Shown: positions 34,336 to 48,200 of the stretch, piece after piece
How the letters are laid out: each line of letters opens with the position of its first letter
Numbering within the stretch: position 1 is the first letter of the stretch
From: Rhea pennata
Taxonomy: Eukaryota > Chordata > Aves > Rheiformes > Rheidae
DNA: 64,000 nt
Assembly: GCF_028389875.1 (NCBI RefSeq)
Contig: NC_084675.1
Coordinates: 18,562,412-18,626,411, forward strand
Direction of reading: 5' to 3'
Position numbers and translations under genes: made by a program
Notes under the pieces: model-generated
What the model was told of the DNA's origin: nothing
Databases searched by the model: none
The model's input: only the letters and a program-made list of their open reading frames with translations

Positions 34336-34747
34336 CACCGTACTGCTTTGTAAATGAAAGGGTTGGAAATTATCCCTAAATCGGATAGTGACATCAGGTA
34401 TAAATTCCCAGTCTCTAACTAAACCTCACCTAAAACATCAGACTTTACTGCAGAAAGAGAACCATTGGACTAACAGTGGGGAGAAAGATGTAAAAGATTT
34501 TTGCATTAGAGGAGAAAAATGAACAGAAAAGGTGATGAGGAACTGGAAAGTCATTCTCTTACTTGACATATGCTCTGAAACTGACTTGCTATTAACATAG
34601 CAACCAGAACAAAATGACATGTTTAATTACTCAGAATTAGAATGAAAATGAACTGGTTTGTGCACAAAAACATGACAGCCTGGCCAACGTGACAAAAACA
34701 GAACAAGAATATTATCATATAACACTAGTGTCAATATTCTTTAGCAG

Positions 34748-34821
34748 GGCACCATGGCTTAGCTGGTTAAAGCGCCTGTCTAGTAAACAGGAGGTCCTGG
34801 GTTCGACTCCCAGTGGTGCCT
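34748..34821 (+). tRNA. tRNA-Thr (anticodon AGT), intact cloverleaf
   Basis: Acceptor arms GGCACCA and TGGTGCC pair perfectly over 7 bp. The A box TGGCTTAGCTGG and B box GGTTCGACTCC match RNA polymerase III consensus. The anticodon stem CCTGT/ACAGG closes a CTAGTAA loop, giving anticodon AGT (threonine). The base at 34821 is the discriminator; no CCA is encoded, as expected for a eukaryotic nuclear tRNA. A TTTT run at 34835-34838 could terminate Pol III. What is odd is what follows: a CR1 LINE tail starts immediately after the TTTT. The sequence is either a functional tRNA gene beside a CR1 insertion or the tRNA head of a chimeric retroposon. The structure is clear; functionality is uncertain. 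Confidence 0.88.
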
Positions 34822-34838
34822 GGGCTGGGGACTGTTTT

Positions 34839-35015
34839 GACAGAGCACTGGAACAGGTTGCCCAGAGAGGTTGTGGAGTCTCCTTCTCTGGAGATATTCA
34901 AAACCTGCCTGGACGTGATCCTGTCTAACATGCTGTAGGTGACCCTGCTTGAGCAGGGGGGGTTGGACTAGATGGTCTCCAGAGGTTCCTTCCAACCTCA
35001 ACCATTCTGTGATTC
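34839..35015 (+). mobile_element. CR1 LINE 3' tail fused behind tRNA-Thr
   Basis: From GACAGAGCACTGGAACAGG onward the sequence follows the avian CR1 3' end: the GCCCAGAGAGGTTGTGGAG block, GAGATATTCAAAACC, the GAGCAGGGGG hairpin region, TTGGACTAGATGGTCTCC and the terminal CCATTCTGTGATTC. It is heavily 5'-truncated (about 177 bp) and lacks the reverse transcriptase. CR1 copies are usually 5'-truncated, but here the truncation point coincides with the end of a Pol III-type tRNA trailer. No clear target-site duplication is visible; CACTAGTGTC at about 34723 and CACTATGTC at about 35015 are a weak candidate pair. Confidence 0.9.
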
Positions 35016-43006: not shown

Positions 43007-43432
43007 CTGGGGGAACGAATCCTCCCAACGCGCGGCTGGGGAGCCGCGGGAACAGTGCTCGCGACAGAGCGGCCTCCCCTGAGAAGAAGCCGTGTCCTTC
43101 ACGCGGCTTTCGGTCACGGTGCTTCGCTAACGCCTGCCCCCGCACCCTGGTTTCCATCTCCTCAAGTCTCCACCATATCCGGTGCAAAGCGAAGCTTCCG
43201 CTAATGGTTTGCGGATTCACCTTGAATTATGGCCAGGTTGGTCTGGAAAAACCTCCTTGGCTTGGTGCAGGAGCAGGAGCCATCTGAGGGCGGTGGTGGG
43301 TCCCGTGCCAGAGCGGCCTCGCGTCGCGTGGGGAGGCCGCCGAGGCGTGCGGCGCCTCCGGGGGCACGCGGCCGCGCGAGGCCGCCACCGGAGACGGGCC
43401 GGAAGGTTCTCCGATGGAGAACCGCGCTCACC
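43007..43432 (-). ncRNA. Candidate first-exon region of a divergent transcript from the CDYL2 island
   Basis: Two donors face leftward inside the CpG island: CGCCAG|GTGAGCGCG with the last exonic base at 43432, and CCCCCAG|GTAACG with the last exonic base at 43007. CpG-island promoters commonly produce divergent spliced long non-coding RNA. No conserved ORF starts here on the minus strand; the long GC-rich frames are composition artefacts. The transcription start would lie in about 43450-44200. Inference from splice motifs only. Confidence 0.35.
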
Positions 43433-43770
43433 TGGCGTCGCGCGCCACCGCTTTTGGCGGCACCACAGCGCGTCGGCTGCCCTGCGCGTCTACGCAAAGA
43501 CCGAGGGGGAAGAGGAGGTAGGTGGCTTCCATTTCCTCGGGAGGGCTGGCTAACTTGCAAAATGGCTGAAAGGGAGCGGGAGAAGCCTCTCCTCGCCCGG
43601 CGGGGCTGGCCGTGGGGCGCCCGGCAGGCCGGGGCTGGGGCGCCCCTGCCCGGGGTCGCTCCGAAGGCGCCGTGGGCGCCTCCGCTTCGTGGCCGCGGCC
43701 TGCGGGCGGCGGCGCGGGGCGGCGGCGGGCGCGGGGCGGGCGGGCGCGGGGCTGCCCGAGGCGGCGGCGC

Positions 43771-43794
43771 GGGGCCGGGGCCGGGGCCGGGGCC
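43771..43794 (+). repeat. (GGGGCC)4 hexanucleotide repeat
   Basis: Four perfect GGGGCC units in the CDYL2 CpG island, about 560 bp upstream of the start codon. G-runs of four separated by CC can form G-quadruplexes. The copy number is short and probably stable, but the unit is the one that expands in human C9orf72. Confidence 0.97.
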
Positions 43795-44078
43795 GCCCGC
43801 GCCCGCCAAAGCACCGTGACCTTGGGCGGGCGGCGCGGGCCCTGCGCGCCGCGGCTCCCCGCGCGGCCTCGCTTCCCCCCTTTATTTTTAGGTTTTGGGG
43901 GGCTTGGGGTGGGGTTTTTCCCCCCGCCTCTTTTTTTTTTTTTTTTGGCCGCGGAAAGAGTTTGAAGTGCTCCCGGCTGGCAGGGGGGGAAGGGGAGGCC
44001 GGCTGCGGAGCGGCCCCGGGACTTTCCCTGCCGGAGGGCGCGGGGGGAGCCGCGGCGGCGCCCCGCGGGCGGGGCGGG

Positions 44079-44102
44079 GGGCGGCGGCGGCGGCGGCGGC
44101 GG
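44079..44102 (+). repeat. GGC trinucleotide tract
   Basis: About seven GGC units in the GC-rich region 250 bp before the CDYL2 start codon, between GGGGGG and GGGAGGGG runs. Probably promoter or distal 5' UTR. Confidence 0.85.
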
Positions 44103-44352
44103 GAGGGGGGCGCCGGCCCCGGCGCCGCGGGGGAGACGCGGCTCTCGGCGCTGTGCGCCCGAGCTGCTGCTGGTTACGCCAGCCCCGCCGCCTGCCTCGC
44201 TGCCGCTCCTCGCCTCTGATTCTGCGCACAGCCAGCCCCGAAGCCTGTCATTCTGCAAAACACAGTTTACTCAACAGAGAGCGAGCGAGTGGGGGAGCGG
44301 GAGAGGTGGAGAGAGGGAGACGGCGCGGCGGAGCCCAGTCCCGCAACCCAGC

Positions 44353-44376
44353 ATGGCTTCGGGGGACCTTTACGAG
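44353..44376 (+). CDS. CDYL2: CDYL2 coding exon 1 (first 8 codons, partial gene)
   Basis: The eight codons read MASGDLYE and stop at a splice donor (GAG|GTAGCG). In CDYL2 this N-terminus is followed by VERIVDK, the start of the chromodomain; the paralogue CDYL instead begins MASEELYE, so G4-D5 favour CDYL2. CDYL2 is a nuclear chromatin reader: an N-terminal chromodomain binds methylated histone H3 (K9/K27) and a C-terminal crotonase-like fold is joined by a disordered linker. Only the lead-in is here; the aromatic-cage residues lie in later exons. The start context (CCAGCATGG) is reasonable, a CpG island surrounds it, and the break is in phase 0, as expected for a V-beginning exon 2. No exon 2 was found up to 64000, so intron 1 is at least 19.6 kb. 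The identification rests on a short peptide plus exon structure and island context. Confidence 0.85.
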
Positions 44377-44930
44377 GTAGCGGGGGGCGGCGGGGCGCCG
44401 CGGGGCGCGGGGCGGCCGCGGGGCGCCGGCCGGGGCGCCGCGGCGGGCAGCGGCGGCGCGTTCGGGAGCCGCTCCGCGGAGCCCTCCTAGTTCCCCAAGA
44501 GCGGAGGAAATCGCCGAGGGAAGGGCTGGGCTGGGGGGAAAAGGGCTGGCGTGTGTGCCGGGGGGGCAGGGAGGGATGGAGCGGCTCCCCTCCCTTCCCG
44601 CTGCCTCTCTCTTTCTCTTTCTCTCTCTACTTTCCACTGGGCTCGATCTTAGCAGGCCTTGCAAGAGAGAAGGAGGAAGGAGTGAAGGAGAGCGAGAGTT
44701 AGCGGTAGGATGGGGAGGTGATCGCAGTGTGATGAGCCCGGAGAGTGGAGAAAGTCCAGGTAAAGTCATAGGCGCTCTGGACGTGCTGAATGTGCAGATT
44801 AGTGCGAAAAAATGCGCCTTAGCGCTGCCGGGAGGCGCAGGGATGGAGGCGGCTCTGCGCCCGCTGTGCAAAGTGCAGGAGCCGACGCCAGGTTGCTTCA
44901 CCTCGCGCCCGGGGGGCGGCGGGGGCGGCG

Positions 44931-44965
44931 GCCGGGCCGGGCCGGGCCGGGCCGGGCCGGGCCGG
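44931..44965 (+). repeat. (GCCGG)7 pentanucleotide repeat
   Basis: Seven perfect GCCGG units at the start of CDYL2 intron 1, about 555 bp after the splice donor. Flanked by further G-rich DNA, with strong R-loop and quadruplex potential if transcribed with CDYL2. Confidence 0.97.
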
Positions 44966-45200
44966 GCCGCGCGGGGGGCCGCGCCCGCGCAGCGCCCCGC
45001 GCCGCATGGCGGCCCGCCAAGTTCGGCCGCGGCCCCGCGCCCGCGGCGCCGGGCGGCCCAGGTGCGCGGCAGCGCGGGGGTCCTGCGCCGCCCCTCGCCG
45101 CGGCCGGGGGGCCCGGCCGAGTCGCGACCTGCGGCACCCCGCTCTCACGGCCGGGCGCTGGACAAGCCCAGCCGCGCTCGCTGCGCCGGGGCACACGGCA

Positions 45201-48200
45201 AGAGAAAACAGCCCTTTTTTATTTATTTTTTTTAAAAAAGGAAGACCTGACTCTGGTGGTTCAAATATCTATCTCCAGTGCATGGAACCGAGGTGGAACT
45301 CCACCATCTACACAGCCCACAAAGAGTAGATGTCCTGCACCAGCACTTGGAGCAGGACACCGTGGGCTCCATGCTCCCTGGTGAAAGGACAGTTGCTGCG
45401 CCGCTGCTGCCGTGGCTGCCGGGAGCGCGCAGTTCAAGGGCTACCACGAAAGCGATCGTGTTCTGGTTGGACCCATGTGCCAATGGTTCGGTGCCGCTCA
45501 AACACCAGGGTACACTTGGTGTAGAGTTACTGCTGCGGTAGATGTGGTTGGACTTACCATCATTTTGATGATCTGGTTTAGGTTCCTAAGTGCAAAAATT
45601 GGAGGATCTGCTGGGTTTCACATAGACAAAGTTTTTACTTTGTCATGATATTTTAAAGTCTCTAACAAAGGTCACAGTTAAGGGATGACATTGCTCTATT
45701 CGGACTTTATTTCACTGAATGGGACTCAGACCTTCTTTGAAGTGGAAAGCACTTACACTCTCCTAAGTGGTGTTAAGTGCTCAGAAGCACATGATGATTT
45801 GAGTAGTATCATTGACCTTTTTCCCCACCATTTTGCCATAGTTGTCAAATGAGTTTGTAGTTGTAAGGATACTGTGTATCAACTATGTTACCGCTGGGAC
45901 TCCAGCCTCGCCAGCAGGAGTTCTATGAAGAACAACCTTGACTGGCAAAAGTTAGTGATACAATTGCTTATTAGTAACTTTGGGGATGTGTAGAGAATCT
46001 TGCCTGGTTTGTCCAAGTTTTCCATATACGTCTGGATTAGTTCTGGAAAGAAATAAAACTAGAACCTCTTGGGTTAATGGTAGCCATGTTGTTTCAGCTC
46101 CTACTCATCGTTTAAAATTTCTGCTCTTTTAAGATCTTTGTGTTATTACAAGATGATGATGTTTGGCAACTGGATGTGGGCTGTGTGGCATATAGGTACA
46201 GCTGCTCAAGTAAATACATGGCAGGAAGATGTTGTGTGAGATAGCAGACTGCTGACCCGGGCAGTCAGTTTTCAGCCCAGTCATTTGCAGGCATTTGTCT
46301 GCAGCCGTTACTGGCTAAGCTGCAGACTGCACCAAGGCATTGTCAAGTGCTGTGGTTCAAAGACTCTGAATCACTTCCTCTCTTTGTTATTCCATTTGGA
46401 CTAGTTTTGCTTATCATTGTGTAATATGGAAGAATTTATCTACCAGAACAGGTAAGTAGAAGTTTGGCTATTCATTTCTTGTTTGGGATGTTTGGCATTA
46501 ATACAACCTTTTCAGCTGGGCGTGCTTTGTTAAGTGTTCATCTACCTGTCGGACACTGCAAAAAGTATGTACAGGGCTCAAATTATCAATCTAGCTACGT
46601 ATTGCGTATTCACTGTGAAGTTCTTGTGACAGGGGCCAGAAGAAATGTCTAGAAATGTTTTTATGCTGAATAGGTAGCAAGTTTGCAGATGGTAGCTTTG
46701 TTTAAACAACAGCTCAGCTTTGCTTCTTCCCATCCCAGAAACCCAACCGCATCAAAGGAACTCATTAGAAAGGAGCTCTTACAGGCTGGGATGTCCAATA
46801 CCAGTTAGACCACACGTGAGATGAAGCTATTCCCACCAGCACTTTACGCTTTCAGAGCTGACACCTCATTTCTTGCTTGGATACACCATTGTTTTCTGTC
46901 CTTCTTTTCAACAACTAAAACATTATGAGGCTGGCAGGATGATCACTAAACAGTTTCAAGATTTTATCTTGAAATATGTTATTCTTCTGAATAATGTGGG
47001 GTTTACGGAAATATTTTAAGTCATACTACACTTGATTCTTCTTTGACTCCATTAGTAACACCTGAGTCCTTCAAGGTTTCTTACTGAACTTCAGCAAATG
47101 AGTCGGTGATAATTTTCTCTGCAATTCAGAGTGCTGGCTGCACTACTAGTGGCTGCAGAATTATTTTTGTTAGAGCTGACAGTGGTCCAGGAGTCAAGAA
47201 ATTATTATTAAAAATAATACATTTTAATACATTAAAAAGTAGAGGGTCCATTACCCACACTAAGTTTTGCTCATGTATTGGTGGCACTCAAGAAACTTAA
47301 TTCGGTATGAAATTCACAGTTTTAGAAATAAATGTAACTATTTCTCCTATCAGTCCATCCATTTTCTATTGTTATGTTATTTTAGAAGATTTTTCTACCT
47401 TTTAAACTTAAAGATAAATTCAATGAATATCTTAATATTAAAGCTAATTAAGACCACAGACAAAATAACATCAGTGTTCTGTTAACTGGGTGCCTTTTTC
47501 CAGTTAGAAGTAGCTTTAAATCATCTGAAGTATGTCCTATTATATTATTTTTAGGACCATGAAATAGTTATCAATTTATTCTAGAAATTAAAGAATATGG
47601 GAATTCTGTGTTTACTAGTAGTCAGTTCTAGATTTGTGTATTAGAACCAGGACATCGTCCATTTAAATAGAGTAGCTTCCGCTTTATATGAGAAGGTAGG
47701 TGTTAATTTTGAAAGAAAACCAAAATTTTTATTTTTCTGTAAATATAAAGACTTCTATTTTAACAACAAGAAATGTTGTATATATTTTAGTATAATTCCC
47801 AAGTTAGATAAAGTGCTAGTTTGCTTGACTTCCATGTGCTTGGGACTTCAAGCTTTTCTGAGTCAGTGGAAAATTCATGGAATATTCCTCTGTCCTGTCC
47901 CCCCAAGAAAGAGATAATCTGTTAAATATTAAAGTGCTATGCTGCATATTTCTTAGAATTAACAAGCTAACAGTAAAGGACTAGCAAAAGGTCCTTTACA
48001 GACCTTTGCAGAGGCCTTTGTTAAGACATCCCTATTCTGCTTTATGATTCAAATATATTGTTGGATGCGTTGACAGAAAATCCCATTAATTTTGATAACA
48101 AACAAAAACAGTAATGTGTTTGAAAGTGAGCATCAATTTTGTTGATTCACATTAAAGTTTTTGTCACTGCTTTGGAGTAGTAACATTTTGAATTCTCCAT

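Follow-up and report, generated by a model that had tools for sequence, protein, structure and literature searches.

Structure of the Element in the Window

The window, the whole stretch of 64,000 nucleotides that was analyzed, is located at C13:18562412-18626411 in its own genome. The genome searched was this assembly of 1.27 Gb in 180 contigs. At positions 34743-35015 of the window, on the forward strand (+), lies a composite element. Its head is an intact tRNA-Thr(AGT) preceded by a 5-nt leader, and a 13-nt trailer and TTTT connect this head to the 5'-truncated 3' end of a CR1. The leader AGCAG (34743-34747), the 5' leader of a pre-tRNA, gives the first bases of the retroposed unit. It is common to the window copy, the copy on C2, and both tRNA-Thr genes on C6, and the sequences differ farther upstream. 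The tRNA body (34748-34821) forms an intact cloverleaf and contains the Pol III A box TGGCTTAGCTGG (34755-34766) and B box GGTTCGACTCC (34800-34810), both recognized by sequence. The 3' trailer of the pre-tRNA, GGGCTGGGGACTG (34822-34834), corresponds to GGGCTGAGGGGACTG followed by TTTTT in the C6 genes. The TTTT (34835-34838) is a Pol III terminator run and the end of the pre-tRNA part, and its last T may be the first base of the CR1. The CR1 part (34839-35015), defined by tail-only matches and the consensus of 27 ordinary copies, represents the last ~177 nt of a CR1 and ends with ATTCTGTG ATTC. The element has a tRNA head in which both Pol III promoter boxes are present, and its 3' tail, derived from a LINE, closes with the CR1 8-mer.

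ARAGORN predicted tRNA-Thr(AGT) at 34747-34822, and the Rfam model RF00005 scored 69.7 bits on 34748-34821 against a gathering score of 29. It is the sole tRNA given by ARAGORN or Rfam in the window. The tRNA of the C2 copy was likewise called as tRNA-Thr(AGT). The cloverleaf with A and B boxes had been described in a first reading made from the letters only (the sequence-only reading), and it is borne out by ARAGORN, the RF00005 score, and the canonical boxes. Of the unit bounds in that reading, the tRNA-CR1 junction holds, but the start had to be moved from the first base of the tRNA, since the leader AGCAG also belongs to the unit. The 5' end of the unit is possibly up to 4 nt upstream of 34743; BLAST aligns the C2 copy to the window from 34739, and 8 of the 9 bases before the tRNA are identical.

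No clear target-site duplications were seen at the element; flanking matches reach 4-5 bp at best, which is near chance level. RNA folding of the whole unit gave an uninformative z-score of -1.43. Elsewhere in the window, 43131-45381 is strongly GC-rich with short GC repeats, and is probably a CpG-island promoter.

Head-Tail Junction and CR1 Tail

In the genome search with the whole unit, 37 of the best 40 of 4153 candidates were tail-only matches, starting at query base 91-94 (window positions 34838-34841). The CR1 starts where the sequence-only reading placed it, at the base after a 13-nt trailer and the TTTT. At the junction, the consensus of 27 ordinary CR1 copies reads ...GTGACAGAGC, versus ...GTTTTGACAGAGC in the chimera. 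The comparison suggests a microhomology of 1 nt; the last T of TTTT may equally belong to the CR1 side. In the alignment with the 27 ordinary CR1 loci (L004-L030), there is no position of the tail where the three copies of the chimera jointly differ from the consensus. By this alignment, the chimera tail is plain CR1.

The TTTT is an early terminator between the head and the tail of the window element. With a TTTT inside the element, most Pol III transcripts should end before they reach the tail. This fits the small family, of which three copies were found, and agrees with the earlier expectation that the terminator limits the Pol III output. The window element would work like a SINE but, with this early terminator, is an incipient one at best.

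Copies of the Element in the Genome

A genome search for further copies, as suggested in the sequence-only reading, was made with a 25-base junction pattern, which could miss copies with more than three changes at the junction. With up to 3 mismatches allowed, the pattern was found in 3 places of the 1.27-Gb genome, each with 0 mismatches. The reversed pattern, used as control under the same setting, had 0 matches in the genome. The shared junction is well beyond chance. The dispersed copies with the common head-tail junction are located at C13:18597150-18597426 (the window copy, L001), C2:79564719-79564994 (L002), and C4:71882292-71883128 (L003), and two of the three have a readable tRNA body. 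In the whole-unit search, the full-length matches among the best 40 of 4153 candidates were the window and C2:79564728 (96%), and C4:71882932 was a partial match from query base 70. The search with the junction region gave five candidates, all scored. Three of them carry the junction, and the other two are the tRNA genes on C6.

L001 and L002 have unrelated flanks and an identical leader and junction. The left flank of L001 has no match elsewhere in the window, and its match to L002 covers 9 bases only. The two copies are 95% identical, with differences at 9 of 176 positions in the tail, 2 of 74 in the tRNA, and 0 of 17 in the trailer. The lower number in the tRNA does not support selection on the tRNA (2/74 versus 9/176, Fisher p = 0.51).

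In L002, the unit interrupts an older CR1, whose two halves join as one alignment to an ordinary CR1 (60% over 990 columns). Upstream of L003 lies ~570 bp of the same old CR1 that flanks L002, with a K2P distance of 0.070 over 557 sites. The order in L003 is the old CR1, AGCAC-GGTGCCA, 62 N, and then the trailer and tail as in the other copies. The 62 N (L003:1439-1500), which may be masked sequence or an assembly gap, occupy the place of the tRNA, and 7 bases, 62 N, and 5 bases add up to 74, the length of the tRNA. The tRNA is therefore visible in only two copies. At its 3' end, L003 has a variable run of CR1 8-mers, and the second half of the old CR1 does not follow; the sequences downstream of L002 and L003 are different. 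When the last 201 bases of the upstream flank of L002 were used as the query, L003 matched over 200 of the 201 bases at 90% and was, besides L002 itself, the sole full-length match among the best 40 of 129 candidates; the other 38 were partial, at 71-84%. As L003 alone among these shares the flank over its length, the L002 locus is the most likely source of L003, through a retroposed longer transcript, a 5' transduction. Two of the three copies begin where Pol III would initiate, and L003 extends into the upstream CR1. As far as chance matches allow the ends to be placed, L001 and L002 have a common start point, which would be expected of Pol III transcripts.

Over the trailer and the tail, the differences are 9/193 between L001 and L002, 14/193 between L001 and L003, and 16/193 between L002 and L003. 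Private changes number 3 in L001, 5 in L002, and 10 in L003. These numbers suggest that L001 and L002 are the closer pair. Concerning the order of L001 and L003, 37 of 557 positions differ in the flank between L002 and L003 versus 14 of 276 between L001 and L002, with no significant difference between the two (Fisher p = 0.44).

Parent-Type tRNA-Thr Genes

Two tRNA-Thr genes are located on C6, at 43831868-43831965 (+) and 43834359-43834456 (-), in a cluster with 14 tRNA calls by ARAGORN in 20 kb. Both genes show ...GGGCAGCAG, the tRNA, and GGGCTGAGGGGACTGTTTTT, and run on past TTTTT without CR1. Their AGCAG leader is equal to that of the chimera. Over the 74 nt of the tRNA, L001 and L002 each differ from them at 3 positions, and two of these differences are common to both copies. 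Compared with the C6 trailer, the chimera trailer has a 3-nt deletion, and the CR1 is joined at the T-run. The flanks of the C6 genes are shared with the window element only over AGCAG and the trailer. A query of the tRNA with its leader and trailer gave six candidates, all of which were scored. They comprise the C6 pair, two copies of the chimera, and two copies of a different fusion; L003 was absent, its tRNA being N. The C6 pair is the closest parent type found, and the shared differences and the trailer deletion argue that neither gene is the exact parent.

The leader and trailer are removed in a mature tRNA. Since both are retained in the chimera, the template is considered to be an unprocessed or partly processed transcript. 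The retained ends point to an unprocessed, hence probably nuclear, pre-tRNA.

Two copies of the CR1 tail are found within the 20 kb on C6, more than 4 kb from the nearer tRNA-Thr gene. The region C6:43822000-43841999 (L039/L040) also contains a repeat of ~5 kb that comprises tRNA-Leu, tRNA-Ala, and CR1. Two 1.7-kb arms in the region are inverted relative to each other and 99.9% identical, and the two tRNA-Thr genes likewise form an inverted pair.

Other tRNA-CR1 Fusions in the Same Genome

A second fusion joins a tRNA-Thr-like head to CR1 at its own junction, with the linker ...CCCTTCCTCCCTTCT then GGAACAGG, without TTTT. The name tRNA-Thr-like is based on 83-86% similarity to tRNA-Thr sequences. 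Four copies were found, with all eight candidates in the search scored. Copies with the full head are C1:114856013-114856124 (L046) and C6:40050570-40050681 (L045/L068), and matches from within the head on are C2:160627439-160627495 (L073) and C2:97753693-97753740 (L074). The linker pattern with up to 3 mismatches recovered 3 of these 4 copies and nothing else, and the reversed control gave 0. ARAGORN called no tRNA in the two full copies. The second fusion is more decayed, and a C-run in the tail is common to its two full copies.

The genome search with RF00005 gave 54 matches (63 scored of 56288 candidates), and six dispersed partial ones were among the matches listed. Four of the six were read, and they consist of a tRNA-Ile-like head and a ~56-nt CR1 tail (L081-L084: C7:29135752, C2:73982783, C3:32484884, and C5:10409032). 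The head resembles a tRNA-Ile, and the SINE would be TguSINE1-like. For the same four copies, ARAGORN called tRNA-Ser(GCT) in one and no tRNA in three. With one copy as the query, the best 40 of 2511 candidates were all 93-100% identical over at least 100 of 103 bases. This tRNA-Ile-like SINE is abundant in the genome. The abundant CR1-tailed SINE and the two other fusions indicate that this genome supports CR1-tailed SINEs and that at least three different junctions arose. As a separate observation, C10:24888543-25084072 contains at least 28 tRNA matches on one strand, mostly at ~5.95-kb spacing. They form a tandem array within 0.6 Mb of the contig end, and the array copy that was read is tRNA-Cys(GCA).

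Origin of the Element

It is likely that the element is a retroposed chimera of pre-tRNA-Thr and CR1 that was made by template switching and then recopied. The chimera, already proposed in the sequence-only reading, is supported by the junction common to the copies and by the parent-type gene elsewhere without CR1 at its T-run. In this mechanism, CR1 reverse transcriptase would have copied the 3' end of a CR1 RNA at a nick by target-primed reverse transcription, jumped to the free U-run 3' end of an unprocessed pre-tRNA-Thr, and copied the pre-tRNA up to its own 5' end. The resulting locus would combine a Pol III promoter with a tail that CR1 reverse transcriptase should recognize, and so could be recopied; two or more further rounds of copying would have followed. 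The copies in the window and on C2, beginning at the pre-tRNA start, would fit a Pol III transcript reading through TTTT. The C4 copy would come from a longer transcript whose start lay in the old CR1, upstream of the unit. The small family size would be explained by the internal terminator.

The template switching itself is what we infer against another route, in which a real tRNA-Thr gene first received a 5'-truncated CR1 at its terminator; Pol III transcription then continued past TTTT, and retroposition of the fused RNA gave the three copies. This route would yield the same RNA and copies, and L001-L003 fail to separate the two readings. The CR1 copies within the tRNA cluster on C6 show that CR1 does insert in the neighborhood of tRNA genes. 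However, the CR1 would need to be inserted exactly at the end of the T-run, and the C6 tRNA-Thr genes continue uninterrupted after TTTTT. Nor is there a locus with C6-type flanks and CR1 among the six candidates, all scored, of the tRNA query, in which L003 is missed because its tRNA is N. We consider this route unlikely. The simpler alternative in the sequence-only reading, that the window site holds an ordinary tRNA-Thr gene whose terminator later received a CR1 insertion, agrees with the intact cloverleaf and the promoter boxes, but the identical junction at two other sites refutes it unless the three sites are DNA duplications. The likeness of the leader also ends after 5-9 nt in L002 and 5 nt in the C6 genes, and this alternative is hardly credible.

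The spread of the 270-bp block by duplication or gene conversion at the DNA level would agree with the 95% identity between L001 and L002. It is very improbable, as the block is bounded by the pre-tRNA start and the CR1 8-mer end, no flank is common to L001 and L002 beyond the unit, the 8-mer run at the end of L003 is variable, and the downstream sequences of L002 and L003 are not alike. The upstream CR1 common to L002 and L003 raised the idea of a CR1 subfamily carrying the tRNA, which was rejected, as the flanks of L002 are one older CR1; among the best 40 of 129 candidates, L003 alone besides L002 has the L002 flank over its length. An origin from the tRNA-Ile-like SINE of the same genome was rejected on the length of the tail (~56 nt versus ~177 nt in the window element).

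The window copy had been proposed to be a one-off chimera or a founder. The former is rejected, as the junction is in three places; the lack of any other copy with the junction had been named as part of what would speak against the chimera, and the two further copies contradict that part. The window copy is one of the three, and sequence comparison singled out no founder among them. With the fusion in three places, a new family of short retroposons seems to be at its very beginning. A wider reading, to which we give even chances, is that CR1 reverse transcriptase repeatedly captured tRNA transcripts in one bird lineage. The at least three junctions would then be at different stages: tRNA-Thr at U4 with three copies, tRNA-Thr-like with a read-through linker and four copies found, and tRNA-Ile-like with a short tail as a family of abundant copies. 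In the window element, a SINE family would then be seen at the moment of its birth, derived from an unprocessed nuclear pre-tRNA, with the parent gene type recognizable and one copy moved with its 5' flank.

The birth of SINEs has mostly been reconstructed from old, high-copy families. In the present case, a single genome allows the type of the parent gene, both ends of the pre-tRNA, the junction, and the number of three copies to be read.

Comparison with Known Systems

The element is of a known kind, the tRNA-headed and CR1-tailed SINE, represented by TguSINE1 and PittSINE in the text of Suh et al. 2017 (PMC5729268). TguSINE1 of passerine birds has a tRNA-Ile head with A and B boxes and a CR1 3' end, and is mobilized by CR1. 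The window element likewise has a tRNA head with both boxes joined to a CR1 3' end. It differs in the head (tRNA-Thr instead of tRNA-Ile), the three copies found, and the internal TTTT. As described in PMC5729268, tails of TguSINE1 and PittSINE come from CR1-X1_Pass, with four diagnostic bases. The heads described there are tRNA-Ile and tRNA-Asp; "tRNA-Thr" and "threonine" are absent from its main text. Among the titles and opening abstract lines of the papers listed in the literature searches, a tRNA-Thr head on CR1 was not met.

PittSINE of Pitta, derived in that paper from TguSINE1 by a head swap, has a tRNA-Asp head for which template switching was proposed, and alternatives are described in PMC5729268 as untestable without a pitta genome. 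The gain of a new tRNA head by proposed template switching is common to PittSINE and the window element. In contrast to PittSINE, the head here is tRNA-Thr and the tail is ordinary CR1, longer than that of the tRNA-Ile-like SINE of the same genome. From these two features of the tail, its donor was probably CR1 itself.

Chimeras of U6 and LINEs, reported in a paper on U6 snRNA pseudogenes (PMC4476161), join the 3' part of a LINE (L1, L2, or RTE) to a Pol III RNA by template switching. The only bird CR1 case in that paper (turkey) is left open owing to a gap of N. The joining of a LINE 3' part to a Pol III RNA is the same in the window element, but the RNA here is a pre-tRNA and the product moved again. 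In tuatara, the likeness lies in the presence of CR1-mobilized SINEs in a sauropsid; the text of PMC7116210 describes ~6,900 RNA-like elements derived from recently active elements overlapping such a SINE.
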